A stretch of DNA of 64,000 nucleotides from positions 3,162,001 to 3,226,000 of the forward strand of contig OX387202.1 in NCBI GenBank assembly GCA_947561715.1, written 5' to 3'. The stretch is from Ascidia mentula. Taxonomy: Eukaryota; Chordata; Ascidiacea; Phlebobranchia; Ascidiidae. Shown here piece after piece: positions 16,929 to 47,669 of this stretch. Under the pieces are notes generated by a model. It searched no databases and was not told the DNA's origin. It saw only the letters and a program-made list of their open reading frames with translations. How positions within the stretch are numbered: position 1 is the first letter of the stretch; each line of letters starts with the position of its first letter. The position numbers were made by a program, and so were the translations under genes.

Positions 16929-17339
16929 TTGATATGTTTTGGCATTAATGAGGTGTTTAAATATTACTAATTGTTGAACGATTTTTCTGCTTAATCAAAT
17001 TGTTTAAAAACTTTTCCGGATCTTTTTGCTATTATGAATTACAACTTTTGAGTCGATTTAACAATGGACGTTTGTTATAAATTTACCTTACATCACGTTC
17101 TCTTTGTAGAAGTTTTTCTGCGGTGCAACTGCAAATTTATTAGTTACTGGACAATAAAATCCCCTTTCCATGACGTTAGCTTCATGCCAAATAAGCTGTT
17201 ACATGTTTCATAATCATAGTGTTTTGATATAAAAGATGTTCACTAATCACACATGAATCATTCCAAATTTGCTGTAAATATCACAAAAAATAAGAAACAA
17301 TTTTTTTTACATAAACTTCAATAATTATTCACCAGTAGT

Positions 17340-18001
17340 GAGCATTAAAGCATTCCTAAAACACTTATGAACAGCACAGCGAATCATATTTTCAACTCTA
17401 CAACAAGCTATTACGCTACGATGTGCTTACGACGTACGACGGAATAGAACTCAATTCTACTCGATTGTAGCGTCGTTAAATTGACTTCTTTCGTCGTAAG
17501 CGGCGCCGCCGAATGCTTCTCCGACAGCGCTCCAACGCAGTGGGCATACAATTGCTCCGACGGTCGTAATCGTCGTGACGTAATGCCCTTACGACGCGCT
17601 TACGACTGCAGTGGGCATCAGCCCTAAGTGTGCTAAACCTCCAGTTTAAATAATGGAACATTTCCGCGTTTAGGTTAGGTGAGGCGAGGTGAGGTTAGGC
17701 GAGGCAGGGTAGCTCTGCTCGATGCTGTACTGTGCCCACCTCAGTTCTTTGGTTTTGTGATTCGGTTCTGTTCAGTGTTTTTTTTTTCAATTAAAGGCAG
17801 GTTAGGAAAACACAACAATTAGAACTCACGTGCGATCTTATGTCAAATGCGTTAATCAAATAGGATTTCCCATCGATCATAAATATATTGTTAATACTCG
17901 GCTAGAGGCTCATTTTTGGCATAATAGGTCGCAACAGTGTTCATCATCAGTGCCAAGAAAGGTCGCAACACTGGTCGATCATCATTCAATTTTTCATCGA
18001 A
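17340..18001 (+). repeat. A-gene upstream block
   Basis: Repeated at 34530-35190 and 63430-64000. The first 300 bases hold a GC-richer patch full of CGTCGTAA/TTACGACG words and two CAGTGGGCAT copies, possibly an old MITE. From about 17660 comes a purine-rich GGTTAGGTGAGGCGAGG run and then an AT-rich stretch to the proposed A2 start. It may hold the A2 promoter. I see no gene in it. Confidence 0.6.
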
Positions 18002-21000
18002 ATGAAACGAGAAAGTTATGAAACTACGATTCGCTCTGGTCCCCAGGAAAACAGTAAGTCGTACAAACCGGTTATATTATCTTTGTGTGGAGAAACTAAG
18101 ATCTTGTTGTCTGACGCGGTTTCCCAACTGCTGTGAATAAAGCGGGAAAGTCAAAACCATTGTTTAACAACTTTTGACGTCACTATTGACGCTTACTGAA
18201 AGCTTTGTACCAAAATTACATTTATTTGACAACATGTATTATGACGTCATAACCTTTGCATAATGAAACGCCATAAATGGGCTTATGTAAGAGTTTGAAT
18301 ATTACAATGACAAACTCGAGGATAAAGATACTAGACCTCGTAGCGTAAGGCTTTGTTGGAAGTTAAATTACCCGAACCAAAAGCACGTCTGTAAACTTAA
18401 TAACAATCAGTTTACGAGGAACCTCTGCAAAGCGCGGGGAAGGAGAACTTGCCACAACTACGCGCTGAGCTTAGAAGAACCAAGTTTGTGCTGGTGGTGG
18501 TGCTGGTGGTGCAGGGTCTTGTTATTGCAGCAGTTCTCGCTCTTGTAAGTGTCTTGTCATTAAGAAATTAGCGTAGCGTCAACATGCTATGGGTAAACGT
18601 AAGTTGGAGCGTAATAAATCAACCCTGTGCTTTGTGAAACAAGTTACATCAATCATGACCAATAAAAAAGTTTCGTTTCTGGTTTGGGAGCTAACATAGA
18701 TCTTGTACGCTTCCACTACTTGGGTAAATACGAATGGAAGGAATAAAACAATGTTTGAAACAAAGTGTTTCTGATGACCGTCAGTTGGTTTATATTTTAT
18801 AAATTATGAAAAATCGATTTCTCCTACAGCAGTGATTCCCAACCTTTTTGTGGTTGCGTACCTCATGGAGGTGAAACAATTTCGACGCTTACCACCTAGT
18901 TGAGTGTTACAACGTAACCTAAGGGATGAAGTAACAAACATTTTAAGAATACTTGCGATTTTTTGAATTCGAACTATATCCGCAAATTACAAAAATGTGT
19001 TAACTAGGACTGGCCTAGATATCTACTTAATCACCAATCAAGTTTTTTTTTTGAATATATATATTTCGCCTATGTGGCATCCTCAGTATTCTAAAAACAA
19101 CAACAGTAATCGTAGTAATTAGTATCAATGGCACATATCAAGACTAACACACACTTAACCTCCAGACCGCAATCCTGTACCAAACCAAACAAAAACACAC
19201 AAGCACAGCAGCAGTTGAACGGTAGCAACGAAAAACGTTGTTGCGTCAGTGGTTTGCTCGCGGGTGCAAAGATAACCATTTCAGGCACCACACAAGTGGC
19301 TGGATGGATTAGAACGGTTTAAAGATTAAAATATAAATAGAAAATGTAAAAAAAGGTAAAAACAAAAACAATAAGAAAACGTTGTGTTTATCGTATCCTG
19401 GGCAACACCATGCGTTGAATGTTAATTGTTGCATTGGTTATGGCCTGCCATTTCGACTCGCATACGTCAACTGTTCTGCAGCAAGGTTGTTCGACAAATG
19501 TTACGAAGTAGCATTTATCCAGGCTAGGCTTTGTGCTTAGCACCGTGTTGTGCTTGCTGACGTAATGTCCAAAAATGTGTTTGCGTACCACCTGGAATGG
19601 CACAGCCTACCACTGGTGGCACGCATGCTACCGGTTGGGAAACACTGGCCTACAGCATACGCATCATCAGTTTCTGCAAATCAAATGCATTAAAACACTC
19701 GATGCTACATGTACCTAAAATAAGCCAACAAATAAAAATAAAACTGAAATGGTGAGCAGAATGTCCCCTACCACTGCATCTACACAACTGCAAACTTCAC
19801 ACCAGTGCAAGACCCGCTGAAATGAGCAACATTAAAAACAACGGTAAAAGATGTACTCCATCCATAAAACACAACACCAAACAAAACTGCCAGCAACTGC
19901 TTTTTTAAATGTTAATTGAAACTTGGGTACGGTTGCCAGTCCTTTGGCCCCAGGCTGTTCCACCAATACCACCGAAAAACAACTTAAAATGCTTAGGCGC
20001 GTTCCTGCTGGTGGGTGCGCGTTTGCGAAATGGTGGCGCAGAGCCGTCTTGTCGTTGCTTTCCAATTTGACTTTGGTTGAATTCCAATCTGTGTTGTGTC
20101 CATCTTGTTGAAAATTTGTTTTTGGTTTGGCCAACGTATTGTTCTTTTAGTATGAGCTGGATAACATGAGGATATGCTGTACCGCAAGCAATTATTTGAC
20201 CACGTTCGTGCCTCTGCGATACTCGTAACAATGACTTTCTTGGAGAATTTCCTGCATTTGTTCTCAAGGCTTTGGAGGAAGTGGCCCTGTTGAGGCGGCG
20301 CAAGCGGCATGCTTTACCGAGGACAATCAACTTGTTCTCCAAACGGATTGCAACGACCCTCCTGGTAGCTACCCTTGTGGGCGGTGCACATTGGGCGGGC
20401 ACCATGGAAACCACATATCCATGGTTAACGAAACGACAACATTACCAACAATAGCAGGCAAACGATATAAACTGCTGCAACATGTAACGTGTGCGAATTT
20501 CAGCATTTATGTTGCGACGTGCACAACAATGTCATGAACAATACGTTGGCAAAACCACAAGTTGGACACAACACCGATTGGAATTCAACCAAAAGTAAGT
20601 TGGGAAGCAACGACAAGACGGCTTTGCGCCACCATTTTGCAAACGCGCACCCACCGGCAGAAACGCGTCTAAGCATTTCAAGTTGTTTTTGGTGGTATTT
20701 GTGGAACAGCCTGGGGCCAAAGGAAAGGAAACCGTACCCAAGTTTTCAATAAACTAAAAAATAAAGTTTTGTTTGGTGTTGTGTTTTATGGATGGAGTAC
20801 ATCTTTTATCATTGTTTTTAATGTTGCTCATGTTAGCGGGTCTTGCACTGGTGTGAAGTTTGCAGTTGTGTAGATGCAGTGGTAGGGGAAATTCTGCTCA
20901 CCATTTCAGTTTTATTTTTATTTGTTGGCTTATTTTAGGTACTTCGAGTGCTTTAATGCAGAAACTGATGATGACGTATGCTGTAGGCGAAATCGATTTT

Positions 21001-24000
21001 TCACAATTTTTAAAAAATAAACCAACTGACGGAAATCAGAAACACTTTGTTTCAAACGTTTCCTATCGGCTAATTGCGGTCGTGTTGTAAGACAGTGCCA
21101 CATCAAGGGCTAGATTCTGCCCACTTTAGAGATCACGGAATAAAACAAAATATTTTGCAGGGTTTGATGCAGATCTTCATGACCAACGGTAGGAAAATAT
21201 GAGACTTTATGAGATTGTGAAAGCTGACACTCATATGCACAAGAAGTTATAATTACGTGAAACAAAGAATTAAATACTAGCGATTTTGCAATAAAAATAT
21301 TTCACTTTTTCCTACTTTTGTAACCGAAATTAGCTTGTCCCCCTAACTTGGTTAACACCTTGGCTCTTCTGCACTGACGGCCTATCGCAAAGACCTGGAG
21401 TCGCAAGACCAAGGTGGCTACTTTTGTAATAAAATAGAAAAACGCTAATAAGTATAAAATAATAAAACGATAAAAGTGCAAATGAAACAACGTTTGTTCT
21501 AAAACTTGCACAAAAAAGGACATTCCACTACAACTAGCGTCCGACAACAAATATATTATCACGATCTACCACCAAACAGTGTTTACCATTCGCCACCACC
21601 AGAGAACTAACTCGGCTTATCCCCCATTATTTCCACCACTAGCACGTTAGCCAATCATTGCGGCCCACGTTTGCCACTACTCGGGCCTAAAAAAGCGAGT
21701 GAAATCGAAATAATTACAAATATATTATTAAAGGTGAGTGTGAAAGAAAATAAAGAAAAACATGTGAGTGAAAGTAAAGCGAAAATACAAAATAAATAAA
21801 GCGTGAAAAACAAAACGAACAAAGACGTTTACACCTCTCACGTTAAAAATTGTCCTACTCCATTAGGACGCTTGACAAAATTAAGTTTGTCTCCGATTTC
21901 GCTGTGTTCGGCTGTCGTTGGTCGTCGCCGCAACAGCGTTTATGTCGGCGTCCAAACCTTGACCAACGTCCATCAATGGCTGAGTAGGCAACCCTGTATC
22001 CTGTGCAGTGGGTGCGTCCGTGCGTGTGTCGCTTTGCGGTGTGTAGATGGCTAAACTGTCAGTGTCGTGCAGCCCGACCTCATCCGGCTGCGTGTTTCGG
22101 CGTTCTGTTTCATAGTGAGGCAGGTTTGCCTTATTCAATCGGTTGAAATGTACTCGCTGCTGTTCCCCATCCTCTCCCTCGATAAGGTAATTCACCAAGC
22201 CGTGTTGTTCAATAACTTTGACAGGGCCTTTGTGTGTTCTTATGAACTTACCTTTCTTGATTTCGTCCCCATCTCGTCTTCTATTGTATTGCTCCTTCAT
22301 TTGAACGCGTTGAGCCGTCAGGGTTTCTCTGGCTACTTTATCAACCAGCCACAACCGAGCTCGTAATTCATCAAAATAAACCAGCGGAGTCGTTGTCACT
22401 TCGTGATCTGGAGAAATGAGATCGGCGGGTAGGCGCAGTTCGTGTCCTGTAAGTAGAAAGTGAGGGAATACCCCCGTTCTACCATGTCGGCTTGCGTTGT
22501 TCGAAGCAACCACCGCCGAAAGTGCTTCGTTCCATTGTTTATTATCGCGTTGCACGTAATTGCGGAGCCTTGTTATGATGTTGCGGTTGTTACGTTCGCC
22601 CCCCGTTGCTTGCGGGGTGATATGGCGTCGTTCGGGTCTTTTTACAACCCATCAACCTCACCAGTTCTGCAAATAATTTGCTTTCAAAATTCCCTCCTTG
22701 GTCGGAGTGAATCACCTCAGGTACCCCATGTACCGTTAGCCACCTGTGAAACAAGATGCTCGCTGTTTCATGTGCGGTTTGATGCCGCATAGGCCACGCT
22801 CTGACATATTTTGTGAATAAATCACAAGCCACTAGGATATACTGATATCCTGTCCTGGTTAACGGAAGTGGACCAAGCACATCAATCTCAACGCAATGCA
22901 TCGGTCGCATATCTTGCGATCGAACTAACGGTGCTCGGGTGGTAGTGGTTGGTGTCTTTTTCGCTGACAGTGTTCGAATTTACGACAATAAGCCTCTTTC
23001 TCCTCTCTCCATTTTAGCCAGTAAAAACGCTGTGACAGTTTGATCAATGTTTTAGCCGTTCCCAAGTGTCCCCCGCCATGTACCTGGTCGTGGCATGCGG
23101 ACAGCACTTCGCTGCGCATGGTAAAGTGTACTTTGCACTTTCTACATTGTTTAACCTAGCACCAAACCCCAATATGGTCCGGTTTGTCAACCTTTCCATC
23201 GCTTCGGAGCTGGTATGTGCTTTAGTGCAAGTGTCTCTTTTATTATTCAAGAGTGTTTGAGCATTGATCGCCTCAAAATCTCTCCGCTGGGCCAAAACGA
23301 ACGCTTTTCTGGAGTTAACGGAAGTTTGGTTTCAGTTGTTGGAAAAATCACTTTGAATGTTAAGCTGAGGTGGCAGATATCTCCACGCCAGCAAAGAGCA
23401 ATGAATATAACACCTCATTTTTAATAGTCTCCTCCGAGGGAAACGCCTTGTCGCCTAGAGCTTTTAAAGCATACACAAAGTCCCTAATGACCAAACAACA
23501 TTGCGCGTGTTTCATGGAGTCGCGAGTGGTCAGAACCTTGCTTTAGGGCGCGGCTCATTAACTCATCCTGTATACTTCAGTTGAAAAACATTATTGTCGT
23601 TTCCCTGAGCTAGCCAGCGGAGGTCATCATCAACTGATGTTATAAAAAGATGACGCTTCACTTCTTCACTGGCTTTCACACTATCACAGTAAGATTTAAA
23701 CTAGGAAACAAACTGGCCATCATCTTGTCCCGTATAAAACGCGGTGTTAGTTGGGTGTCTTTAAAATTGAACCAAGAACGCCACGAGACTGAATGATAAT
23801 TAAATCTTTTGGTAACGTCGCCTAAGTCGCAACCAAGAGAGTCTTTCTTGAACAGTCGTGTGCTACTGAAATACAATGTTACGGAATTATTTCAGCAGCA
23901 CCGGAATTAAGCCTAGTTAGGATTTGAGCGGCAACCTCTCACCAACAAACACAACCCTGGAGCCTCAAAATCTCCAACGCTGCCTCCCTAATTCTCACCA

Positions 24001-27000
24001 CTAAAACAAAATACTCCACTCTGGTTTCAATAAATAGGAGTCTTGTTAATAAAACGTGAACAATACCTAAAAACACAAGAACAATAAACCCTACAAATTA
24101 CTTGCAACGACAACCGTGCAGCGCGTCGCCAATCTAAAAACTAACGAGTCCTTCTCGCAACACTCCTGCTACCGGCCAATCAACCATTCAGCGAACGGCA
24201 CGTAAACCATTGGCGCATTATGGGATTTGGCCAACATAGAAACAGACAGGAGTGCGTAAATATTGCCAAGGGTAATTTGATCAAATGTGAGTGCAGAAAA
24301 ACCGATGAAAACAAAGGAATGGTAGGGGTGCGTTGTGTGCATATGTAATTAGTGGGCTTGATATAAACAACACAGATAATCAAAGAAAGCGTGAAGAAAA
24401 GCATCAATGTGTGGTTTTCCTCCACACGATGTTGGGAAAAAAATTATGTTGTTTTTGATGGGAAGGTCCGCACAGTAAATGACATCAGTCACGTTATTAA
24501 TTTCGGTAAATAACACAAAGACGCATTGATCTGGACTAGTCAAAAATTTCTTGTTTTGTTTCTTACAAGTCATATTAAATAACATCCATGTTTTCAGGCC
24601 AACTTAAAACAGACAAAAACCAAACGATCCAAGAAATTCGGACACTGCAGACTGATTTCATTGGAGTTCAAGGTAACATGTGAAATGTAATTGACGTAAA
24701 ACGTGTCAACATGTTTAATGTAAGTTTTATTCACAGAGTTGTCGAACAGAGTGGATCATCTGCAAAGTGAGCAGAACCGCACATCTAACAGTTAAGTTCA
24801 TGCACTTAACATTTAATGTCCACTCACACATCGAAGATTTTATTCACAGAGTTGTCGAACAGAGTGGATCAACTGCGAAGTGAGCAGAACCGCACATCTA
24901 ACAGTTAAGTTCATGCACTTAACATTTAATATCCACTCACACATCGAACATTTTATTCACAGAGTTGTCGAACAGAGTGGATCAACTGCAAAGTGAGCAG
25001 AACCGCACATCTAACAGTTAAGTTCATGCACTTAACATTTAATATCCACTCACACATCTAACATTTTATTCACAGAGTTGTCGAACAGAGTGGATCAACT
25101 GCAAAGTGAGCAGAACCGCACATCTAACAGTTAAGTTCATGCACTTAACATTTAATGTCCACTCACACATCGAAGATTTTATTCACAGAGTTGTCGAACA
25201 GAGTGGATCAACTGCAAGGTCAACTGAGTAACACTTCCAACAGTTGAGTTTTACTTTATTTAAATATAAATCTCACATATGTGTCCAATTCTGAAAACCT
25301 TTGCCCGTAACTCACGTCATAACTCGCTTCTGCCCCTAGTGAATTAGATTGGTATGCGCGCAGGTATCTACACCACTAGGGGCAGAAGCGAGTCATGACG
25401 TAAGTTGCGGGCAAAGGTATTGGCAAACCCAACATATATGTCATCACGTGCGAATCAGAGAGGGTTTCATCTGGCACCGGTATATTCTGATTATAATGCA
25501 GGTCGTGCAAATATTGTGGGGTTCTCACCGCCTACTTGCGTGTGAATGAGTTTAACTCAATACTTCTGCCAATCTGGTGAGTTTTAACCGTCTGCAGATC
25601 TCCGGAATCTCATATATTCTTTTCCACCGGTCTCCTGTAAATCATCAGATCTTAAAGGTCGCCAACATCTTTTATCGGGAGAAGAAGTTTACTGTGAAGA
25701 TGGGTGGCAGGTATTGATACTGTGGTAAATATCACTAACACAGGGGTGGGCAATCCCTGGCACCAGCGCTAAGTTGGGTAAGCGAGGCGAATATGCACGA
25801 CAAGTAATTTCCGATTTCACACTACAATACTTAACTATACGCCCGGGATTGTGTTGTTTACAAAGGTCAGGAAATTACACATGAATGTGAAAAGTCATTA
25901 ATTGACATGGAGGTCATCCACTTTTTTAGACCAATTCACCGAAAATCAGTATCAAGTGTTTTACTTGATAAATACCAGGTGTTCCAGCGTCGTTATGATG
26001 GATCTGTGAGTTTCGATAGAGATTGGGTGGATTACAAGAACGGGTTTGGGTATCTATCAACAGAATTTTGGATGGGTTTGTATTCCAATAAAGCAATCCT
26101 TAACTAACTACAAATGTTGCAAAACTATGAATAATGGTTTGTTTTAATTTAAAATGTACTGCTTTTCTGACATAAAATATACATTCTGTATTTTCACGAC
26201 GTTACGTCTGCCATTCAGCGAGACTTCATCAGGTATTGATACCGCAATTTCCAAGTAAACTGCACTAAAACACTCAGGGACACAAAAACGAAAAGTGGAC
26301 ACGTTGACCCCGCTTGTGAGATCACGTTGCAAAGGCGAAACACGAAACACTGCAGGAGGCGCAACAGTTACAACAAATTGTTATAAACTGCTGGAAAGTA
26401 AACACATTGTCATTTTTTTTTAATTTTTTTTTACCACACCGGTATTTGAACCCAGGATGTCCTGGGCACGAATCCCGATCAGGTTTTCTTCTTGATATAT
26501 GGGTCGAGCGCTTGACCAATGCTTAAAAGAGACCAGCAGTAACCCGTAATGATGAAACGCCCACTAGCGGAACAGTTGTTATTCCTTACGTCCCTGGCCT
26601 TACCGAAACATTGCGAAGATTGATGTCGGATTATGGCATAAAAGTCTGCACTAAGCCCCAAACAACGCTTTGTAGTCTAATATCACGACCTATCACTACG
26701 GAAGCCTTCAAGCCAAAGAGCGTGGTCTATTTAACACCATGCAAAGATTGTGATGGTGTATACATCGGCGATACCGGAAGGGCCTTGAAGACGCGACTGA
26801 AAGAGCATCGCCGTGATGTCGCATCGAAAGATGCCAGCAAGACTGCGTAGTCCAAGCATGTGGTGACATTGCGACACGAAGTTGACTTCGATAAAGTTCT
26901 GGAAAAGGAGTTGGACCACAGAAGCGGCTCTTTCTTGAGTCGCTTCACATTCACAAAAACAATGTGTTTACTTTCCGGCAGTTTATAACAACTTGTTGTA

Positions 27001-29292
27001 ACTGTTGCGCCTCCCGCAGTGTTTCGTGTTTTGCCTCTGCTACGTGATCTGACAAGCAGTGTCAACGTGTCCTTATTTCGTTTTTGTGGCCCTGAATGTT
27101 TTAGTGTAGTTTACTTTGAAATTACGGTATCAATACCTGATGAAGTCTCGCCGCATGGCAGACGAAACGTCGTGAAAATGCAGCACGTGTATTTTATGCA
27201 AGAAGAGCGATACATTTTAAGTTGCAATGTGCCTGACAGCAACAGGAGTTCCAGGTTTGTTATAGGTTGAACGCATTTACTGAACACATTGATATAACTT
27301 ACACACACCTAGTTTATATACAGGCCAACCAAGCAAAACGTTTCAAGTACGCTACGTAACAATCCTGGAGTCAATGTAACAGTATCCAATTTAAATTCCA
27401 GTATATTCACCAATATAATGACAGTAAACAAATTTTATCAGGTTTGGAGAAACTGCATCAAATGACCAGTGCGTCTACTAGATGTCGCCTTCGTGTTGAC
27501 CTTCAGGATTTTTCAGGAGGTCAAGGATTTGCCGAGTATAGGTAAGACTATGACGTATTTACCGCTTTCAATTTGATGTCATTGTTCCAACGATAATTTA
27601 GCCAATGCTGCCAGGTCGTCATAACTAACAAAATCTTAAAAGATGTTACCGCCCTTATTACGTCAGATACAGGTTTCAGGTTGCTTGAAAATTGACCTAA
27701 AGTCGTTTGTGAACTTAAGGTTGAAAATATCTGAGTTTCCTTCTCAAAACTTCTAATCCCACTCTGTGTTTATTGCTTTGTTGACAAATAATTATCCCAC
27801 ACAACACAACACAATATATGACAAATGTCGTTTATTACTTGAAAAAGAATAGAAAAGCCAAAGCTAAGATGCTGTTAATCATGCTGAGTAAACGTTTCAA
27901 ACCTATACTTGGTTCATCATCAGTACTACTAAAGCTGGTTGCAGAAAAGCGTCAAGTTAATAAAGGACTGAAGGCAGAAGGGAAATCCCTCAACAAAAGT
28001 TGAAAGGTCAGCAACCACCTATGGGAAAATCCGGATCATGATGTTGATTTCAATTTGCCCAAAGTCCTATACAATTCTAACATCAAATCTAAATTGCTCA
28101 TATTGGAAACACTTTATATCCAGCTCTAAAGCCTTATACCTTTTTAACATCTAGGTCTGCACTGTAGCTTGACTCTGTAAATGATGACGTCACTCTGTGC
28201 TATCGACGCTGCTGTCACGCTACACGCCTCCGGCTTGTTTGCTTGGTGTTGTTGCTGTTTCCCTTCTGCCTTCCGTTCTTTATTAAATTGACGCTTCTCT
28301 TCATCCAGCTTTAGTAGTACTGATGATGAACCAAGTATAGGTTTGAAACGTTTGCTCAGCATGATTAACAGCATCTTAGCTTTGGCTTTTCTATTCTTTA
28401 TTACGTAATAAACGACATGTGTCATATATAGTGTGTTGTTGTGTGGGATAATTATTTGTCAACAAAGCAATAAACACAGAGTGGGATGAAAAGTTTTGAG
28501 AAGGAAGCCCAGATATTTTCAACCTTCTATTCAAAATTATAAACTCCACTTGTTTTGCACCAACGTAATCAAGTGTTTTATGTTTAACAATCATTTCCAT
28601 GAGTAATAAAGCAATGTAAGCGGATTGATTTAAAACAACAAATTATCCGTTGTTATTTAAATTACTTTGCATTAAATTAAACATTATGACATTGTTGTTT
28701 TCAGTACTTTCAGCATTGGCGATGAAGGAAGTTCTTACACAATTACTATATCCGGATATTCGGGGAACATAGGAGATTCCATGACAAACGGGGAGAATCT
28801 AAACGGGGTGAGATTTTCAACTCGCAACAGAGAAAATGATTTGTGAGTAATAATGATACAACGTGTCTGATTATATTTCTGTTTTACTAACGAAGTAAAT
28901 CGAGTTGTTTCAAAAAAGATGAAATGCATTTCTTCAAATAGTAGATTTTTGTTGACAAAGTTAACCGCCTACCCTAAATCAACAATTGTAAAAATCAATT
29001 GCTCTGAAACAGGGGGTTGCGTTAAAATTTTAGTTAAACACAAGTTTTAACTGAGTTTAAATAAGTTGTAACACGAGTTGATGACAACCGACTTAATTAT
29101 AATTGCAGGTGGCTAGGAGGTAATTGTGCTGTGACCCTGGGTGGAGCTTGGTGGCATCGTGTGTGTTCAGTTGCCCACCTCAATGGTCCGTGGTCGAGAA
29201 CTTCTACTGCGCGCAACACTATGAGTTGGTGGAGTTGGAAGATTTCATGGAGCGGAATAATGAGTTCTAAGATGAAAGTGAAGTGTGAATAA
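18002..29292 (+). CDS. A2: predicted type II membrane protein with coiled-coil stalk and FReD
   Basis: Proposed exons: 18002-18053, 18411-18544, 24250-24286 (weak), 24598-24672, 24737-24790, 24850-24903, 24963-25016, 25076-25129, 25189-25242, 25598-25710, 25979-26075, 27442-27541, 28705-28842, 29109-29292. They sum to 1200 bases, 399 codons plus stop, in frame throughout. Exons 1-2 give a tail of about 40 residues with two tyrosines (SYETT, IYEEPL), basic residues RRTK and a 20-residue hydrophobic segment [20 protein letters not shown], without a signal peptide: a type II anchor. Then come a [17 protein letters not shown] coil, five ELSNRVD repeats and the FReD ([42 protein letters not shown]). 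Calcium-site aspartates are lost (NREND). FIBCD1 of vertebrates has the same order of parts. The FReD exons are secure; the link to exons 1-3 across a 5.7-kb transposon-filled intron is inference. Confidence 0.6.
18411..18544 (+). other. Transmembrane exon of A2
   Basis: Open from an AATCAG acceptor to a CTT/GTAAGT donor, phase 1 to 0. It encodes [16 protein letters not shown], a charged stretch ending RRTK, and the 20-residue hydrophobic segment. Positive charge just before the segment favours a cytoplasmic N-terminus. The copy in unit 2 (35320-35453) is nearly identical and still open. Confidence 0.6.
18830..19647. mobile_element. hAT-type element inserted in the left Penelope arm
   Basis: Ends CAGTGATTCCCAACC and GGTTGGGAAACACTG, flanked by TCCTACAG and GCCTACAG (8 bp, one mismatch). 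It splits the hammerhead-like motif of the left arm: CTGATGATGCGTATGCTGTAGG lies to its right on the minus strand and the GAAATCG part to its left. It is longer than the 220-bp copies because of a further insertion inside it. Confidence 0.75.
19002..19570. mobile_element. 569-bp insertion with 11-bp direct repeats and a hammerhead-like core
   Basis: AAAAATGTGTT stands on both sides (18991-19001 and 19571-19581); the short hAT copies lack this insert. On the minus strand at 19064-19087 it carries CTGAGGA, a short GCC/GGC stem and GAAA. It has no convincing coding frame and is probably a non-autonomous Penelope derivative. Confidence 0.6.
21790..23900 (-). mobile_element. Ty3/gypsy-type LTR retrotransposon fossil, unit 1
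   Basis: Minus-strand remains of a Ty3/gypsy pol gene: an integrase zinc-binding part (HHCC type) near 23119-22925, the integrase core near 22910-22590 and its C-terminal part near 22555-21881, with gag-like remains at the 5' side. The reverse transcriptase region is not seen, so the copy is incomplete and carries several breaks. LTRs could not be delimited. It lies in the long A2 intron and is older than the 17-kb duplication because unit 2 has it too. Confidence 0.75.
23900..24597. other. Intron sequence between LTR fossil and first coil exon
   Basis: Mostly unassigned AT-rich sequence. The only candidate coding piece is 24250-24286, bordered by ACAG and GTGAGT, which reads [12 protein letters not shown] and has just the phase (0 to 1) needed to join the transmembrane exon to the coil exon at 24598. 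Its polypyrimidine tract is poor. It is unchanged in unit 2. Confidence 0.35.
24737..25242 (+). repeat. Five tandem 113-bp units, each with a 54-bp coil exon
   Basis: Exons start at 24737, 24850, 24963, 25076 and 25189, exactly 113 bases apart. Each begins AGTTGTCGAACAGAGTGGAT and ends ACA/GTTAAG or ACA/GTTGAG, phase 1 to 1, so any number keeps the frame. The peptide is [18 protein letters not shown] with an N-glycosylation site (NRT); the last unit reads [18 protein letters not shown] like the single exon of A1. In the first four units CAAA/GTGAG gives an inner donor of the same phase, which would shorten the exon to 30 bases. Confidence 0.85.
25298..25417. repeat. 120-bp hairpin MITE in an A2 intron
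   Basis: CCTTTGCCCGTAACTCACGT returns inverted as ACGTAAGTTGCGGGCAAAGG, with arms of about 45 bases around a 30-base spacer. A1 has only the left arm at 3837-3885. Unit 2 copy at 42334-42453. Confidence 0.75.
26407..26535 (-). mobile_element. tRNA-derived SINE nested in the Penelope arm
   Basis: On the minus strand: an A-box-like TGGTCAAGCGC, then GGTTCAAATACC as B box, and an A-rich tail (poly-T at 26412-26432 on the plus strand). It breaks the left arm of the element. It is a different family from the SINEs before the B genes. Unit 2 copy at about 43437-43565. Confidence 0.65.
27137..27171 (+). ncRNA. Hammerhead-ribozyme-like core in the right Penelope arm
   Basis: CTGATGA, a helix GTCT/AGAC with an inner GCC/GGC pair around a GCAT loop, then GAAA and CGTC. 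Penelope-like elements are known to carry hammerhead ribozymes in their terminal repeats. One extra base separates CTGATGA from the helix. ACGT as helix III would favour a dimeric form. The matching core in the left arm (minus strand, 26200-26238) is damaged in the GAAA box here. Unit 2 copies: 44166-44200 (+) and 43226-43260 (-), the latter with an intact core. Confidence 0.55.
27717..28528. mobile_element. Inverted pair of Penelope-type terminal arms
   Basis: Left arm (about 27717-28000) and right arm (about 28250-28528) are inverted copies, including TTATTGCTTTGTTGACAAAT and its complement. Each has a hammerhead-like core: minus strand 27891-27923 and plus strand 28320-28350 (CTGATGA, GAACC/GGTTT helix, GAAACG). 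Nothing coding lies between them. Unit 2 copy at about 44870-45690. It fills an A2 intron. Confidence 0.65.
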
Positions 29293-29559
29293 ATGTTGGG
29301 AGGTTTAAAGTGACGAAAATTAACATTGCGTCGTTAGTTACCATGGCAACGTTGTGTTGATTTACAATTATTGACAGACATTGTAAATATTTTTCATTCC
29401 ATATATATCATGATGTTGTTGTAATATCGAATACAACCGTTTCCATGCTGTATGTTGGAAATCCATGTAAATATAAACATTGATCCTTCAGATTTGACAG
29501 TTGATTTCTGATTCGAGAATGTCATTAAATTTGATTCAGTTCAGTTTGGCTTTCACTGA

Positions 29560-30730
29560 TAAACCTCAAAAATGAATTCATGCCAATTTCCGCAAATATT
29601 TACAGAAATGCGCGGATATCGCGGCGCCATTTCACCGACTTATTGGAAAGGTTTTTATGTGAGGGTAAATTGTGTAACAAGGTTTCCTATCCACACCAAG
29701 GTCCTCATTGTAGCCCAAATGATGACGTCACGGCCGTGGACATTCGAGTGGCGTCTGTCACGTGTTTCATTTGTGTTTTTTGTCTGCTCAGTTACCTGCC
29801 TACCTCTGCACACACCTTGCTGGAACTCATTCTTACTTGGCACTGGTGATGAACACAGTGGTGTTTGAAACGTTTGCTTCGGCATGAGTAGCATACTAGC
29901 TTTGGCTTTCCTTTACAAATCATTTTCTTGTCACCTCCCAAGGTTAGACCTTATACACTTTTGTGTAATAACCAAACTTAACCCGGCAGTTTGTGGAGGA
30001 CACAGACGCGTCTGGTGCGTCTGCGGTTGCATTCCATGGCAGAATGTAGATGAAATAGAGAGAGTGAATTTATGTAGAATTTTTCAAGGGAATTTTGCTA
30101 AAAATTAAATTACAGGAGTATGCCTTGATTTGACTTTTCGAGTTGGGACCGCCTCTTGTCTACGCAATCGGGTCAAAAATAGTATTTTGCCCCCAGGTCG
30201 GACATTAATTTAGTTAAAAAGGCTTCAAATGTGTCGATATATTTTGTGCAAAAATAAATCACAAAAACCTCATGCAATTTGCAATTCAATGTTGTCCCCA
30301 AGCCTCTTTCTATGCAATGGCAAAACATTTTTGCCGGGAAAGTTGCTTTGGTTGCCCCCTGGGAGCTGTTTCTGCTATCCTATTGGGCATAAGATCCTCC
30401 TGAAAGCTCCTCAGATCCTTGCTGTGTTTTGACCAATGCAGCTGCAATTATTGTTTTTTTTTCTTTGAATATTTAGTACTAGTGTGCCTTCATAGGTCAT
30501 AAGCCACAGGAAATGTTTTCAAAACGGGTTCCCACCTTCGCGACCCATCAGTATGTCTGCCAAGAAAGTCTCGGTCTGACATCTTGTTAGTAGGTATGGT
30601 CTTGGATCTAACTTAGTTCTAAGATCAAAGGCATGGACTTTGAGACCAAACTGCGATCTCTGTGATCCATAAGACCACATGTTAGGATCTAGAAGACCAA
30701 ATGTTGTAACCCAAGAGACCACTTATTGCT
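29560..30730. mobile_element. Decayed Penelope-type sequence downstream of A2, and unassigned repeat
   Basis: 29843-29872 has a hammerhead-like core with CTGGTGA instead of CTGATGA; the unit 2 copy at 46739-46768 has CTGATGA and an AACAC/GTGTT helix before GAAACG. From about 30120 to 30730 the sequence is shared with 47040-47640 but I recognise nothing in it. Confidence 0.45.
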
Positions 30731-31110
30731 GAATACTGCCCTTCTGGCAAACTTTATTTTACTGACGTTTCTCAACGTTTCGGCTGTTATGCAACATCCT
30801 TCATCAGGGGGTAAGACATGTAAGTTTACCAAAGTGGACAATGTTGAGGCACATAAACAAAAACGCTACAAAAGAAAGAAAGAAGTAAAAAAACGACAAG
30901 AAAGGGACGAACATACCTTCGCTGTATACTTGTCAGTAAACACACGGGTTATCGAGGTTGTTAGAAAGCGAGATTTTTAACGGCAAATTTTCTAGCAAGT
31001 GTCGGTTCACCGGTGGAAACAGAGTTTGCTTTTTTGTCATTGAATGATGACGCATGCGTATTAATGTTCAATGACTCTAAAAACATCCTCTTATATTTAA
31101 GGTTCAGTGC
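30730..31110 (-). mobile_element. Penelope-type fragment with hammerhead-like core
   Basis: Minus strand 30774-30807 carries CTGATGA, a helix around GCAT and GAAACGTTGA. The following sequence down to 31110 matches, on the minus strand, the endonuclease tail seen at 12900-13000 (ASS-ND motif). Unit 2 copy at 47640-47990. Confidence 0.6.
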
Positions 31111-31112
31111 CA

Positions 31113-31260
31113 TCGCAAACAAGCTGGAACAGCCATTTTTCCGACCAGTCGTAGCGATATCTGAAAAAATCAAGTTGTCGGTGATGTTTGAACTCACGAC
31201 CATCAGCTAATCTGGAACAACGTTCTACCGACTGAGGTATGGTAGCTTACTTGTTTTGCG
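31113..31260 (-). mobile_element. tRNA-derived SINE, copy 3
   Basis: Same family as the SINE before B1; on the minus strand the B box (GAGTTCAAACATC) is well kept. It abuts the Penelope fragment. Confidence 0.65.
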
Positions 31261-31814
31261 GGGTATATTGTGGCCAAGCTACACCCGTGCGCAAGGGCAC
31301 AACTTGCCAGGCGACCTTCACATACGTAGGGGATCTGCATCACCGTTATCAGTCAACACGCGAGTGTTATATGATATAGCATGACAAGCCAGGATCGCCC
31401 CACTGCGCAGGCTAATTTCGTAGATATTTCAATTTATAAATAGATAGTTGGAAGAAAATGCCCTATAATTACTGCAGTTTGGAGGTATACTATAAGGCGA
31501 GGAAAAAATCACTTTAAATCTGAGATATTTCTTCATTTAAGATTGGTTACACAAACGTCTCAGGATATTTATCACTGTGAAACGTACCTGGCCAGTCGTG
31601 CATCAAATCGCATAGGAATTTAATGCCGCAATCGACTAATATGTTCATGAAACTGCAAGCAATCCAATAAGTAGAATTCCACACCATGAAAGGAAATGTT
31701 AAATGTCAGATAACATCGCAGATAATTCTATAAAGCTGGGTTTGATGCTCATTATCGCCATTACGCTTATGTTGTGTCAACGTTTCCAGAGACGATTTGC
31801 AATACGATTATATC

Positions 31815-34126
31815 ATGACGTTGCAACGAACAGTTTTGCTGGTGTTGTTTATTTCAAGTGTAAGAAGTCAGTTAAGTTTGGAATCATGCACAGTTAGCCT
31901 TCAATGTGGAAGCACTAATGGTTTGTTTCAATTGTAGAAATTGGTGTTTGTTTTGTTTGTTGATTACGTGTTCAGCTGCAATTGAAATGTTTCCTGACTC
32001 CTGACTCCAGACTCCGGATGAACCAAACTTGGGTTAGTTGTTTTATTCAGAATACACCAAGACACAAAAACAGATATGTGGGAATCAGACGTTTTTGGTC
32101 CCACACAATACGCCAAAATGTAGAACAGAATGGTGAAACTACACTAGGCCAAAGCCCAGTGCAGAGTGGCGATTCCACGATGTGGAATGAATTGTGACCA
32201 CAAGAACACAGAACTTATACGCACTTGAATTATGCGTTCGCGTGAGACCACTTATCGATAATTGCATCTAACGAGCGATTCTCCTTTGTCGTTCCGAGAA
32301 AATGGGAGTTAAACCTGGTACGAACTGCTATGTCATTGCATTACATCACAGCATAAACGTTACAATAGTCTCATCCCAAAAAGTGTTTTACATAACAGGC
32401 AAAAGAACGATATGAAGAGAAAAAGAGAATAAGAAGAAAAGTGATATTTTAGCTTTGTCAAAGTACATGTCACAAAACAATGGCCAAACAACAAAACCAT
32501 GCGTATAATATGTCAATCAGCAGTTACGTGCTTCATCAAACCAAAACAAAACTAGAGCAAGGATTTTGCTATTGGGGCTTCAGACATATAAAGAGTGGGG
32601 AGGCAGGCTTGAATCGGCGACCTTGCTTAATTTCGCGCCATGTAGTATAAAGGCGCCCAGTGCAGAGTAGGCGATTCCACGATGTGGAATGAATTGTGAC
32701 CACAAGAACACAGAACTTATACGCACTTGAATTATGCGTTCACGTGAGACCACTTATCGATAATTGCATCTTACGCGCGATTCTCCATTGTCGTTCCGAG
32801 AAAATGGGAGTTACACTTCCTCGTACGAACTGCTAAGTCATTGCATTACGTCACAGCATAAACGTTACACAATCAACTGGAATTCGAAATAATTCCCCAA
32901 AACTTCGAGGTCCACCTGACAAGAGAGGTAAAATCGTATGCACAAATATATGCCTGTAGGGTTGTTTTATTCTATTTGAAACACGTTGCAATACCACGAT
33001 GTAATAACAGGGATTTTTCTTGCAAAAAAGATTTAAGGATTGCCATCAACAGGATGTGAATTTTTATTTTAACAACAAGTATTTTTTTGTAGATTATTAA
33101 CTTCACCATCAGTTGGGGACAAATAAGAAGTTAAAAATGTATGTTATCAGAGGAAATACATTCCGTAATATATATTTTTAGGTCCTCGTGGGTTTCCAGG
33201 TCAGCGCGGGTTCAAAGGCGAATCTGCAGAACAATGCGAATGTGACAGAGTAATTCAACTTCAAACTGCCTTGCAACAACTTGAAGCAAGACTTACAGGT
33301 GCAATCACGTTTATTACTGTAATAATTTCCTTGTTAACAGCTGCTCTCAACCCGACCACTTGTAGTGACGTCATGCCCAGACATGTAAACGACACAGGGG
33401 GTGTTTACACGATTTACCCACTCACTGGAGAGCGCAAGGGAGTCCAAGTGTTTTGTGATTTGGTGACAGATGGTGGTGGATGGCTGGTAAGTCGACAAAT
33501 TACTTTAAATATCTAAATCATATAGATAATCTATCACTAACGTGTGATATATTATATTTTTTGTATCACATTAAATGTTGGACATTCTTGTTCAGGTATT
33601 TCAGAAACGAGAAGATGGGTCTGGAAATTTCAATCGAGGTTGGAACGAATATGAGAATGGATTTGGAAACTTGACGGATAATTCTGGTTGGGTGAGAAAA
33701 ACTCGATCCACACTAAGTTAATTACGTTTGTTTCAGTCATTTTTCAGTAGGAGAAGGAGGAGGTTACAGACTTAACTGGGAGAATTTCTCAGGTCCTGTA
33801 GGGAAACGACCTACATGAAGTTTATCAAAGACAAATTAGTTTGTCCATTTTGATCTGTTAAACCGAGTTAAATTTCTAAAGGCCATGGCATGAAACCATC
33901 TGGGACAAACTTCTCCACTAAAGATAACGATCAAGACATTCATCCAAGAAACTGTGCAATGAGTTACAAAGGTGGCTGATGGTTTACAAGTTGTCACTCG
34001 GGAAACCCGAATGGTTTTTATTACGGAGGTCCATACGAATCTCATGCTGATGGTGTGGGCTGGTATCATTTCCGTGGTCACCAATATTCACTTAAAAATT
34101 TTGAAATGAAAATCAGGAAGAAGTGA
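31815..34126 (+). pseudogene. B3: broken ficolin-like gene, duplicate of B2
   Basis: Carries every B2 lesion: LTR insertion at the same CAAT in exon 1, missing fifth exon, lost donor after the sixth exon, TGA in place of Trp in the last exon, collagen Gly to Asp. Remaining exons: 31815-31932, about 32874-32927, 33182-33298, 33341-33486, 33596-33691, 33737-33801, 33882-34126. Later damage of its own: one base lost in the exon at 33596 (96 instead of 97 bases), a shorter second intron, and AATGAA where the other copies have AATAAA. Confidence 0.85.
31933..32869. mobile_element. LTR retrotransposon fossil in the first exon of B3
   Basis: An LTR (31933-32364), about 290 bases of unrelated internal sequence, and a shorter second LTR copy (about 32655-32869), flanked by CAAT on both sides. 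No coding gene remains; it is broken. The matching site in B2 holds only a solo LTR of the same family, so the two units kept different stages of one insertion. The internal part includes a tRNA-like B-box sequence near 32605, perhaps a SINE piece. Confidence 0.7.
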
Positions 34127-35661
34127 TTGATATGTTTTGGCATTAATGAGGTGTTTAAATATTACTAATTGTTGAACGATTTTTCTGCTTAATCAAATTG
34201 TTTAAAAACTTTTCCGAATCTTTTTGCTATTATGAATTACAACCTTTGAGTCGATTTAACAATGGACGTTTGTTATAAATTTACCTTACATCACGTTCTC
34301 TTTGTAGAAGTTTCTCTGCGGTGCAACTGCAAATTTATTAGTTACTGGACAATGAAATCCCCTTTCCATGACGTTAGCTTGATGCCAAATAAGCTGTTAC
34401 ATGTTTCATAATCATAGTGTTTTGATATAAAAGATGTTCACTAATCACACATGAATCATTCCAAATTTGCTGTAAATATCACAAAAAATAAGAAACAATT
34501 TTTTTTTACATAAACTTAAATAATTATTCACCAGTAGTGAGCATTAAAGCAATCCTAAAACACTTATGAACAGCACAGCGAATCATATTTTCAACTCTAC
34601 AATAAGCTATTTCGCTACGATGTGCTTACGACGTACGACGGAATAGAATTCAATTCTACTCGATTGTAGCGTCGTTAAATTGACTTCTTTCGTCGTAAGC
34701 GGCGCCGCCGAATGCTTCTCTGACAGCGCTCCAACGCAGTGGGCATACAATTGCTCCGACGGTCGTAATCGTCGTGACGTAATGCCCTTACGACTCGCTT
34801 ACGACTGCAGTGGGCATCAGCCCTAAGTGTGCTAAACCTCCAGTTTAAATAATGGAACTTTTCCGCGTTTAGGTTAGGTGAGGCGAGGTGAGGTTAGGCG
34901 AGGCAGGGTAGCTCTGCTCGATGCTGTACTGTGCCCACCTCAGTTCTTTGGTTTTGTGATTCGGTTCTATTCAGTGTTTTTTTTTTCAATTAAAGTCAGG
35001 TTAGGAAAACACAACAATTAGAACTCACGTGCGATCTTATGTCAAATGCGTTAATCAAATAGGATTTCCCATCGATCATAAATATATTGTTAATACTCGG
35101 CTAGAGGCTCATTTTTGGCATAATAGGTCGCAACAGTGTTCATCATCAGTGCCAAGATAGGTAGCAACACTGGTCGATCATCATTCAATTTTTTAGTAAG
35201 AGTTTGAATATTACAATGACAAACTCGAGGATAAAGATACTAGACCTCGTAGCGTAAGGCTTTGTTGGAAGCTAAATTACCCGAACTAAAAGCACGTCTG
35301 TAAACTTAATAACAATCAGTTTACGAGGAACCTCTGCAAAGCGCGGGGAAGGAGAACTTGCCACAACTACGCGCTGAGCTTAGAAGAACCAAGTTTGTGC
35401 TGGTGGTGGTGCTGGTGGTGCAGGGTCTTGTTATTGCAGCAGTTCTCGCTCTTGTAAGTGTCTTGTCATTAAGAAATTAGCGTAGCGTCAACATGCTATG
35501 GGTAAACGTAAGTTGGAGCGTAATAAATCAACCCTGTGCTTTGTGAAACAAGTTACATCAATCATGACCAATAAAAAAGTTTCGTTTCTGGTTTGGGAGC
35601 TAACATAGATCTTGTACGCTTCCACTACTTTGGGTAAATACGAATGGAAGGAATAAAACAA

Positions 35662-38070
35662 TGTTTGAAACAAAGTGTTTCTGATTACCGTCAGTTGGTT
35701 TATATTTTATAAATTATGAAAAATCGATTTCTCCTACAGCAGTGATTCCCAACCTTTTTGTGGTTGCGTACCTCATGGAGGTGAAACAATTTCGACGCTT
35801 ACCACCTAGTTGAGTGTTACAAAGTAACCTTAAGTAAAGGATGAAGTAACAAACATTTTTAGAACACTTGCGATTTTTTAAATTCGAACTATATCCGCAA
35901 ATTACAAAAATGTGTTAACTAGGACTGGCCTAGATATCTACTTAATCACCAATCAAGATGTTTTTTTTTGAATATATATATTTCGCCTTTGTGGCATCCT
36001 CAGTATTCTAAAAACAACAACAGTAATCGTAGTAATTAGTATCAATGGCACATATCAAGACTAACACACACTTAACCTCCAGACCGCAATCCTGTACCAA
36101 ACCAAATAAAAACACATAAGCACAGCAGCAGTTGAATGGTAGCAACGAAAAACGTTGTTGCGTCAGTGGTTTGCTCGCGGGTGCAAAGATAACCTTTTCA
36201 GGCATCACACAAGTGGCTGGATGGATTAGAAAGGTTTAAAGATTAAAATATAAATAGAAAATATAAAAAAAGTTAAAAATAAAAACAATTGTATTTGTCG
36301 AAAAAACGTTGTGTTTATCGTATCCTGGGCAAACACCATGCGTTGAATGTTAATTGTTGCATTGGTTATGGCCTGCCATTTCGACTCGCATATGTCAAGT
36401 GATCTGCAGCAAGGTTGTTCGACAAATGTTACGAAGTAGCATTTATCCAGGCTAGGCTTTGTGCTTAGCACCGTGTTGTGCTTGCTGACGTAATGTCCAA
36501 AAATGCATACCACCTGGAATGGCACAGCCTACCACTGGTGGCACGCATGCTACCGGTTGGGAAACACTGGCCTACAGCATACGCATCATCAGTTTCTGCA
36601 AATCAAATGCATTAAAACACTCGATGCTACATGTACCTAAAATAAGCCAACAAATAAAAATAAAACTGAAATGGTGAGCAGAATGTCCCCTACCACTGCA
36701 TCTACACAACTGCAAACTTCACACCAATGCAAGACCCGCTAACATGAGCAACATTAAAAACAACGGTAAAAGATGTACTCCATCCATAAAACACAACACC
36801 AAACAAAACTGCCAGCAACTGCTTTTTTAAATGTTTATTGAAACTTGGGTACGGTTGCCAGTCCTTTGGCCCCAGGCTGTTCCACCAATACCACCGAAAA
36901 ACAACTTAAAATGCTTAGGCGCGTTCCTGCTGGTGGGTGCGCGTTTGCGAAATGGTGGCGCAGAGCCGTCTTATCGTTGCTTTCCAATTTGCCTTTGGTT
37001 GAATTCCAATCTGTGTTGTGTCCATCTTGTTGAAAATTTGTTTTTGGTTTGGCCAACGTATTGTTCTTTTAGTGTGAGCTGGATAACATGAGGATATGCT
37101 GTACCCCAAGCAGTTATTTGACCACGTTCGTGCCTCTGCGATACTCGTAACAATGACTTTCTTGGAGAATTTCCTGCATTTGTTCTCAAGGCTTTGGAGG
37201 AAGTGGCCCTGTTGAGGCGGCGCAAGCGGCATGCTTTACCGAGGACAATCAACTTGTTCTCCAAACGAACTGCAACGACCCTCCTGGTAGCTACCCTTGT
37301 AGGCGGTGCGCATTGGGCGGGCACCATGGTAACCACATATCCATGGTTAACGAAACGTCAACATTACCAACAATAGCAGGCAAACAATATAAACTGCTGC
37401 AACATGTAACTTGTGCGAATTTCAGCATTTATGTTGCGACGTGCACAACAATGTCATGAACAATACGTTAGCCAAAACCACAAGATGGACACAACACAGA
37501 TGGGAATTCAGCTAAAGGTTGAAAAGTTGAAAAGCAACGACAAGACGGCCCTGCGCCACCATTTCGCAAACGCGCACACACCGGCAGGAACGCGCCTAAG
37601 CATTTCAAGTTGTTTTTCGGTGGTATTTGTGGAACAGCCTGGGGCCAAAGGAAAGGAAACCGTACCCAAGTTTTCAACAAACTAAAAAATAAAGTTTTGT
37701 TTGGTGTTGTGTTGTGTTTTATGGATGGAGTACATCTTTTATCATTGTTTTTAATGTTGCTCATGTTAGCGGGTCTAGCACTGGTGTGAAGTTTGCAGTT
37801 GTGTAGATGCAGTGGTAGGGGAAATTCTGCTCACCATTTCTATTTTTTTTTTTATTTGTTGGCTTATTTTAGGTACTTCGAGTGCTTTAATGCAGAAACT
37901 GATGATGACGTATGCTGTAGGCGAAATCGATTTTTCACAATTTTTAAAAAATAAACCAACTGACGGTAATCAGAAACACTTTGTTTCAAACGTTTCCTAT
38001 CGGCTAATTGCGGTCGTGTTGTAAGACAGTGCCACATCAGGGGTTAGATTCTGCCCACTTTGGAGATCAC
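35662..38070. mobile_element. Penelope-like element, unit 2 copy, with nested hAT
   Basis: Counterpart of 18752-21136, with GGAATAAAACAA on both sides (35650-35661 and 38071-38082). The hAT-type element lies at 35740-36569 and includes the smaller insert. Minus-strand 37336-36971 keeps the GIY-YIG segment [10 protein letters not shown]. Confidence 0.7.
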
Positions 38071-38428
38071 GGAATAAAACAAAATATTTTGCAGGGTTTG
38101 ATGCAGATCTTCATGACCAACGGTAGGAAAATATGAGACTTTATGAGATTGTGAAAGCTGACACTCATATGCACAAGGAGTTATAATTACTTGAAACAAA
38201 GAATTAAATACTAGCGATTTTGCAATAAAAATATTTCCCTTTTTCCTACTTTTGTAACCGAAATTAGGTTGTCCCCTAACTTGGTTAACACCTTGGCTAC
38301 TCTGCACTGACGGCCTATCGCAAAGACCAGGAGTTGCAAGACCAAGGTGGCTACTTTTGTAATAAAATAGAAAAACGCTAATAAGTATAAAATAATAAAA
38401 CGATAAAAGTGCAAATGAAACAACGTTT

Positions 38429-38593
38429 TATATGTGCAAAAAAAAGCCATAATATTGCAAAGCGAAAGGTACCACAAAGTGGAGACTAGTGTGCCTGCTA
38501 GTGTGAAAGCTAGCACAGTGCCACTCAACAGCTGCACTGATGAGACCTTACAGGTCGAAACAGTGCGTGTACACACCCTATCTGCAGCTTTGC
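38429..38593 (+). mobile_element. 165-bp insertion unique to unit 2, with hammerhead-like core
   Basis: Flanked by a perfect 11-bp direct repeat AAACAACGTTT (38418-38428 and 38594-38604); unit 1 has this word once and no insert. Near its right end it carries CTGATGA, a 5-bp helix GACCT/AGGTC with a TAC loop directly joined to CTGATGA, and GAAAC. GCAC before and GTGC after can pair. It inserted after the segmental duplication and is the youngest datable event in the window. Confidence 0.75.
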
Positions 38594-38914
38594 AAACAAC
38601 GTTTGTTCTAAAACTTGCACAAAAATGACGTTTTACTACAACTAGCGTCCGACAACAAATATATTATCACGATCTACCACTAAACAGTGTTTACCATTCG
38701 CCACCACCAGAGAACTAACTCGGCTTATCCCCCATTATTTCCACCACTAGCACGTTAGCCAATCATTGCGGCCCACGTTTGCCACGCAAGCGTGACTACT
38801 CGGGCGTATAAAAACGAGTAAAATCGAAATAATTACAAATATATTATTAAAGGTGAGTGTGACAGAAAACAAAGAAAAACATGTGAGTTAAAGTGAAAGT
38901 ATAGCGAAAATACA

Positions 38915-41040: not shown

Positions 41041-41885
41041 TCAGCAGCACCGGAATTAAGCCTAGTTAGGATTTGAGCGTCAACCTCTCACCAACAAACA
41101 CAACCCTGGAGCCTCAAAATCTCCAACGCTGCCTCCCTAATTCTCACCACTAAAACAAAATACTTCACTCTGGTTTCAATAAATAGGAGTCTTGTTAATA
41201 AAACGTGAACAATACCTAAAAACACGAGAACAATAAACCCTACAAATTACTTGCAACGACAACCGTGCAGCGCGTCGCCAATCTAAAAACTAACGAGTCT
41301 TTCTCGCAACACTCCTGCTACCGGCCAATCAACCATTCAGCGAACGGCACGTAAACCATTGGCGCATTATGGGATTTGGCCAACATAGAAACAGACAGGA
41401 GTGCGTAAATATTGCCAAGGGTAATTTGATCAAATGTGAGTGCAGAAAAACCGATGAAAACAAAGGAATGGTAGGGGTGCGTTGTGTTCATATGTAATTA
41501 ATGGGCTTGATATAAACAACACAGATAATCAAAGAAAGCGTAAAGAAAAGCATCAATGTGTGGTTTTCCTCCACACGATGTTGGGAAAAAAATTATGTTG
41601 TTTTTGATAGGAAGGTCCGCACAGTAAATGACATCAGTCACGTTATTAATTTCGGTAAATAACACAAAGACGCATTGATCTGGACTAGTCAAAAATTTCT
41701 TGTTTTGTTTCTTACAAGTCATATTACATAACATCCATGTTTTCAGGCCAACTTAAAACAGACAAAAACCAAACGATCCAAGAAATTCGGACACTGCAGA
41801 CTGATTTCATTGGAGTTCAAGGTAACATGGGAAATGTAATTGCCGTAAAACGTGTCAACATGTTTAATGTAAGTTTTATTCACAG

Positions 41886-42278: not shown

Positions 42279-42333
42279 GTTGAGTTTTACTTTATTTAAA
42301 TATAAATCTCACATATGTGTCCAATTCTGAAAA

Positions 42334-47640: not shown

Positions 47641-47669
47641 TGGCAAACTTTATTTTATTGACGTTTCTC

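Follow-up and report, generated by a model that had tools for sequence, protein, structure and literature searches.

The 64,000-nucleotide stretch of the Ascidia mentula genome analyzed here (contig OX387202.1, positions 3,162,001 to 3,226,000; hereafter the window) carries two genes with fibrinogen-like domains (FReDs), A2 and A3, which are probably members of a large, germline-encoded family of lectins of the ficolin type, with diversifying selection acting at the predicted ligand pocket, judging from their sequences. The family extends over several chromosomes; the framework of its last exon and the adjoining intron are nearly frozen, and the codons of the predicted pocket are hypervariable and carry, in site models, a positive-selection signal that is not seen in a control family (B). 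The initial annotation of the window had noticed replacement-rich divergence confined to the last two FReD exons of A2 and A3, and had attributed it to diversifying selection or to gene conversion in a recognition molecule. In the mitochondrial contig of this genome, COX1 contains internal TGA codons, and AGR codons appear to stand at expected glycine positions, as in the ascidian code. All features of A1, A2 and A3 given below lie on the forward strand and are numbered within the window.

To describe the family, we searched the genome with the last exon of A3 (46263-46446), which gave 151 matches with 150 of 269 candidates scored. About 90 of these matches (hand count) were at least 60% identical over most of the query, and they were located on contigs C1, C2, C52, C67, C69, C70 (the chromosome of A2 and A3) and C71; stops were found in about two of them (hand count). 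Compared as DNA, the last exon of A2 (29109-29292) was 83-89% identical in 39 other copies (40 of 95 candidates scored), the final 134 bases of the intron before it (28843-29108) were 96-99% identical in 39 others (40 of 92 scored), and the conserved 100-bp exon of A2 (27442-27541) was 95-100% identical among copies (40 of 101 scored); these percentages describe the best-scoring copies for each query, and the three lists are not identical. Furthermore, exact copies of a 30-base framework block of the last exon were found at 41 places, against none for its reversed control. All counts from the genome searches are lower bounds. The pattern seen between A2 and A3 is family-wide and not peculiar to this pair.

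The last exon, which in A2 consists of 60 codons and a stop, is a mosaic of hypervariable and framework segments. Among six copies (c1, c2, c3, A2, A3 and L038), divergence in successive blocks along the exon was 42, 0, 60, 3, 29, 2, 53, 2, 49, 9, 17 and 5 percent, six variable blocks (17-60%) alternating with framework blocks (0-9%) whose limits were chosen after the alignment was seen. Three or more residues occurred in 17 of the 60 codon columns among 11 copies, a set that leaves out A1 and c10, which form a diverged subtype, and c7 and c9, whose exon is identical to that of c3. When site models were fitted to these 11 copies, the comparison of M2a with M1a gave a likelihood ratio statistic (LRT, 2 delta lnL) of 67.7, with omega at 6.9 in 21% of codons; the single-ratio omega of the exon was 1.00. 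The same comparison gave 49.4 for six copies with an identified N-terminal part, A2 and A3 being left out, and 51.2 when A1 was added; in one of the six, L041, a stop interrupts the leader/collagen exon. For these models we used our own implementation of M1a and M2a, the relative branch lengths being held at those of a nucleotide tree built with IQ-TREE. The interleaved B-type control genes (13 last exons, 11 distinct) showed no signal of positive selection, with an LRT of 0.42 and a ratio of replacement to silent differences (pN/pS) of 0.44.

Of the other exons of the family, exon 2 of the FReD (25979-26075 in A2, VFQRR...; 43007-43103 in A3) and the 100-bp exon together are constrained in five A copies (pN.020, pS.076). 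The penultimate exon is intermediate in five copies (pN.117, pS.127), its variable part being a length-changing loop. In the last exon, codons that encode the same residue showed a silent change of.078 in six copies, close to the pS of.076 of the other exons; therefore the exon as a whole does not look faster, and its excess consists of replacements at particular codons. When the edges of the exon are compared without gaps, the last 20 intron bases differ by 1.7% and the first 12 bases past the stop by 21.7% in five copies, the latter because a one-base length difference shifts the register; aligned over 60 bases, the difference is 4.4%. This 3' stretch was compared in five copies, c1 (unrelated after the stop) and A1 (diverged subtype) being left out, and its divergence is.23 with both included.

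The initial annotation had placed the changed residues near the ligand pocket of known FReDs, and the alignment with FIBCD1 supports this. A fragment of A3 can be aligned with FIBCD1 (PDB 4m7f), and between exon columns 2 and 35 the alignment is free of gaps; the first cysteine of the last exon corresponds to Cys401 and the second to Cys414. The FIBCD1 construct comprises residues 236-461, with S1 contacts at Tyr405, Cys414, His415, Tyr431, Trp443 and Ala432 (PMC3908420), and S1(2) and S1(3) add His382, Asn413, His396 and Arg412 (PMC10825690). Variable column 11 corresponds to Tyr405, column 19 to Asn413 and columns 2-5 to His396-Asn399, and columns 46 and 48 flank Trp443. The loop of the A2 penultimate exon (about 28784-28804) aligns with FIBCD1 residues 379-384, which include His382 of S1(2). 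In a post hoc test, 12 of the 17 variable columns were on or at most one residue from a residue of this extended S1 site, a position for which 19 of the 60 columns qualify (hypergeometric P = 1e-4; the best of 60 circular shifts), and so were 7 of the 10 columns with an M2a posterior above 0.9 (P = 0.008). Variable columns 5, 24, 42, 43 and 55 fall off the pocket pattern. The cysteines and the R412 position are kept in 11 of 11 copies, and the positions of Y405, N413 and, across a gap, Y431/A432 vary.

The exons of the neighbouring gene A1 join to an open frame of 292 residues, in which a leader (hydrophobic as judged by eye) and cysteines are followed by 11 G-X-Y triplets, then by a neck and the fibrinogen-like domain. 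These are encoded by exon 1 with the leader, cysteines and collagen-like repeats (3274-3523), a neck and N-terminal FReD exon (4223-4338), FReD exon 2 (4608-4704), the 100-bp exon (4964-5063), the penultimate exon (5431-5568) and the last exon (5834-6011, end by hand count), and the predicted product has the full ficolin layout. The fibrinogen-like domain (PF00147) was recognized with E values of 2.6e-49 in A1 and 2e-49 in A2; in A1, Pfam detected only collagen and Fibrinogen_C, with no IgSF domain. The best PDB match of the A2 FReD was ficolin-2 (E = 3.5e-36), and both A2 and A3 have an N-terminal FReD exon (25598-25710, SCK...EVYCEDGWQ, and 42634-42746, respectively).

The leader/collagen exon of A1 had 73 matches in the genome, 35 of them, A1 included, at 80% identity or more, and 21 of these 35 (hand count) lie inside a cluster at 19.5-21 Mb of C70. 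Three other copies, c3, c7 and c9, carry an EGF-like exon, and their N-terminal FReD exon is of a different type, which has 104 matches in the genome, 29 of them at 73% identity or more. Collagen-type and EGF-type genes both carry the A-type last exon, and therefore one exon type serves two kinds of gene. We had considered that A2, A3 and most other copies, seemingly without an N-terminal FReD exon, were silent, truncated donor cassettes; this was dropped when a divergent N-terminal FReD exon, with 78 matches genome-wide, was found in all eight copies of the region that do not carry the EGF-type exon. In the same part of C70, three A-type last exons lie 5.1 kb apart (20842658, 20847763 and 20852868). 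For the three together, one N-terminal exon and one leader/collagen exon are listed, both upstream of them; the three are either partial copies in tandem or perhaps alternative last exons. At C70:16.87-17.97 Mb there is a second very large cluster of FReDs, with dozens of copies and open frames mostly of 82-87 aa.

Comparison of A2 with A3 confirmed most of what had been noted by eye, including the exon coordinates and splice sites. Their last exons differ at 35 of 183 aligned bases (about 35 of 184 in the initial annotation), with 18 codons replaced and 3 changed silently only. The 100-bp exon (44471-44570 in A3) is identical (0/100), the penultimate exon (28705-28842 in A2; 45865-45993, 9 bases shorter, in A3) differs at 9 of 131 positions plus a 9-base gap, and the intron that precedes the last exon has 12 differences in 265 positions (4.5%), 11 of them inside 28900-28999. 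Both genes lie inside a 17-kb tandem duplication, the copies of which occupy 14606-31330 (with A2; limits approximate) and about 31330-48225 (with A3), and the adjoining 5' sequence is about 99% identical: 12 of 1442 positions (0.83%) differ in the upstream part, 26000-27441, and 14 of 1035 (1.35%) in the earlier intron. At a rate of 1.35%, the last exon should carry about 2.5 changes; it has 35, which is beyond chance. The 60 bases past the coding end have 1 difference and one gap. The confinement to the last two exons held in part: the last exon stands out, but the 3' flank at 29670-31330 is also only 94.0% identical, with 83 mismatches over 1,664 columns, and the exon lies near a boundary between closer and more distant sequence. 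Misjoined exons are an unlikely cause of this pattern; the 306-kb region contains no N, and the genome note reports HiFi reads and a QV of 64.9 (PMC11109543).

Several results weigh against diversifying selection in a ficolin-type family. An in-frame TAA (43091-43093, position by hand count) interrupts FReD exon 2 of A3, which is probably a null copy. A leader/collagen exon was not recognized for A2 or A3, the A1 exon matching only A1 and c10 in 306 kb (at E 0.01; a divergent exon could escape), and the Pfam collagen match of A1 itself (E = 0.00014, 21.9 bits) is under the cut-off of 27.2. The last exons of c3 (L020), c7 (L023) and c9 (L025-L026) are identical (0/181), with flanks differing by 0.7-2.8%. 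Of the roughly 90 last exons, 15 (13 distinct) were readable. The pocket test was designed after the variable columns were seen, and variable columns 35 and 36 flank Tyr431/Ala432 where the alignment has a gap. The site tests assume one tree and may be inflated, given the recombination suggested by the pairwise homoplasy index (PHI). The silent change of.078 in the last exon is about twice that of the adjoining intron (.036) and of the 60-base 3' stretch (.044), with which an older last exon is possible. Finally, by the Nei-Gojobori method the A2–A3 last exon has dN 0.21, dS 0.29 and dN/dS 0.73, so that, at the level of the pair, replacement does not exceed silent change. Many replaced A2–A3 codons carry two or three changes, and because of this, selection in the pair is visible only site by site; plain dN/dS is not a decisive test, since ratios near 1 mask alternating constrained and selected codons. 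Thus, the proposed diversifying selection stands on the site models, with and without A2 and A3, and on the clustering of variable codons at the S1 pocket, but not on the pair alone, one member of which is probably null.

Recombination, and not local selection, might equally well have made the pair, with unequal crossover or gene conversion joining near-identical 5' parts to two old, diverged last exons (alleles or paralogues). We consider the chances of this to be about even; it is compatible with selection across the family, and its odds overlap those of the reading preferred here. The A2–A3 last exon is at the norm for five region copies (19.7%, compared with a median of 15.2% and a range of 7.3-20.2 for the 9 other pairs), and the pair is more similar than the median in exon 2 (1.0% versus 3.1%) and in the 100-bp exon (0 versus 4.0%). 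Silent changes are also raised in the last exon of the pair, and the 5% mismatches of the 3' flank fit such a history. Recombination within the last exon is likely (PHI P = 0.008), and runs are common to different copies, e.g. 49 bases in A3 and L038. However, no donor for A2 above 89% identity was found among the 40 scored of 95 candidates, so that the conversion from a variable donor suggested initially is possible by the PHI result but has no matching donor among these. Furthermore, the single difference in the 60 bases past the coding end means that a tract must end near the exon edge, and recombination leaves unexplained why variation in the family as a whole falls mainly on pocket codons. 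The simplest history is that two already different last exons were joined to recently duplicated or homogenized 5' parts; A2 and A3 are two paralogues that may earlier have been two alleles.

Three further explanations were weighed. Drift, relaxed or neutral, among copies that are redundant and in part dead is an unlikely account overall; it would fit the A3 stop, the lack of a recognized leader/collagen exon for A2 and A3 and a stop common to two B copies. However, drift would strike framework and pocket codons alike, and yet the framework stays at 0-9% beside variable blocks of 17-60%; stops are rare among the roughly 90 last-exon matches, and the signal persists in the six copies with an identified N-terminal part, the one with the L041 stop among them. 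A mutator targeted to the last exon, by somatic or germline hypermutation or templated mutagenesis, is highly improbable. Two or three changes in 423 of 765 replaced-codon comparisons and the sharp exon edges are in its favor, but c3, c7 and c9 have identical last exons despite their flank differences, and the last exon resembles the other exons in its level of silent change. Adenine mutagenesis like that of diversity-generating retroelements came under consideration when some variable codons were seen to keep their third base, and was rejected, as the adenines in the framework are frozen and variation also reaches third bases (43 of 160 minor bases); no search for a reverse transcriptase or template was made. 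Very unlikely, too, is a self/non-self ligand like v-Themis of Ciona, a fibrinogen-like egg-coat protein polymorphic for self-sterility. The host is a phlebobranch ascidian, and there is a precedent in Ciona, where polymorphic fibrinogen-like proteins are reported to determine self-sterility (PMC7018956). Against it, none of the 10 places in the genome with a REJ match (16 candidates scored) lies on C70, and many dispersed copies and collagen-type leaders clash with a two-gene haplotype. Of the recognition roles initially envisaged, host-microbe or self, self-recognition of the Themis kind is therefore disfavored, and the layout of A1 suggests lectin-type immunity instead; other kinds of self-recognition are possible.

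Most of the predicted ligand site is encoded by a single 3' exon. Under diversifying selection in a ficolin-type family, new copies would arise through duplication, varied microbial and possibly self glycans would select new pocket residues, and occasional recombination would reshuffle the last exon, so that each individual might carry dozens of secreted lectins differing in pocket chemistry. By analogy with known ficolins, collagen-type members would oligomerize and, through recruitment of MASP, might set off the lectin pathway of complement. Both ficolins and MASPs have been described in ascidians, and the ficolins have been assigned to haemocytes (PMC5465252; PMC11312191). A bolder proposal, which we put forward tentatively and consider somewhat doubtful, treats the last exon as a modular cassette for recognition that collagen-type ficolins and EGF-FReD genes have in common. 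It would resemble an antibody V region in its frozen framework and hypervariable pocket, and duplication and recombination would have carried it to most of the large chromosomes, giving an inherited, haplotype-specific repertoire of complement-starting lectins. If so, the sister group of vertebrates would have its own analogue of a germline antibody repertoire, built without immunoglobulins. Ficolins are usually viewed as a few conserved pattern receptors; given dozens of members whose hypervariable pocket is under selection, the recognition step of the lectin pathway would itself be diversified in a tunicate, and pocket residues would be linked to ligand range in a testable way. A literature search, the coverage of which did not extend to preprints or most subscription journals, found no hypervariable tunicate ficolin family in the accessible texts.

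Other features were seen in and around the tandem unit. At 33169-33513, a B-type frame joins collagen-like G-X-Y triplets to a FReD start, as judged by eye, and B, the control family, may itself be ficolin-like. B-type FReD last exons at 16752 and 33950 share an in-frame stop (GG*WF) in both 17-kb units; this exon is a pseudogene that was duplicated along with the unit. Upstream of A2, 113-bp tandem repeats occupy 24612-25363, with five 300-base windows in register compared with four near A3. A long inverted repeat (foldback element) was seen by eye in an A2 intron at 27750-28500, part of which (27669-27968) is 98% alike in A3. Open reading frames in the A2 and A3 introns (26527-26847 and 43556-43876) appear to resemble a GIY-YIG endonuclease of Penelope-like elements, and minus-strand frames upstream of the two genes (22593-22979 and 39718-40104) appear to resemble a Gypsy-type integrase.

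Among known systems, ficolins (vertebrate FCN1-3, those of Halocynthia roretzi and the ficolin-like proteins of Ciona) are like A1 in leader, collagen-like repeats, neck and FReD, but the family described here numbers dozens of copies, and its pocket exon is hypervariable, whereas three ficolin genes are reported in humans and two in rodents (PMC3240626). The acetyl-binding FReDs of FIBCD1 and tachylectin-5A, which use the S1 site, share the domain and the pocket frame, with NCA, WW, Cys401, Cys414 and LNG kept in most copies; the equivalents of Tyr405, Asn413 and, across the gap, Tyr431/Ala432 differ between copies. The v-Themis proteins of Ciona are likewise ascidian fibrinogen-like proteins reported to be extremely variable; v-Themis sits in the first intron of the REJ-bearing s-Themis, whereas no REJ-bearing gene was found on C70 and the genes here form a multigene family, not linked pairs. 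Finally, the FREPs of Biomphalaria are likewise described as a diversified FReD immune family and carry IgSF domains (PMC7588048), whereas A1 has collagen in their place and the variation of the ascidian family lies in the FReD pocket.

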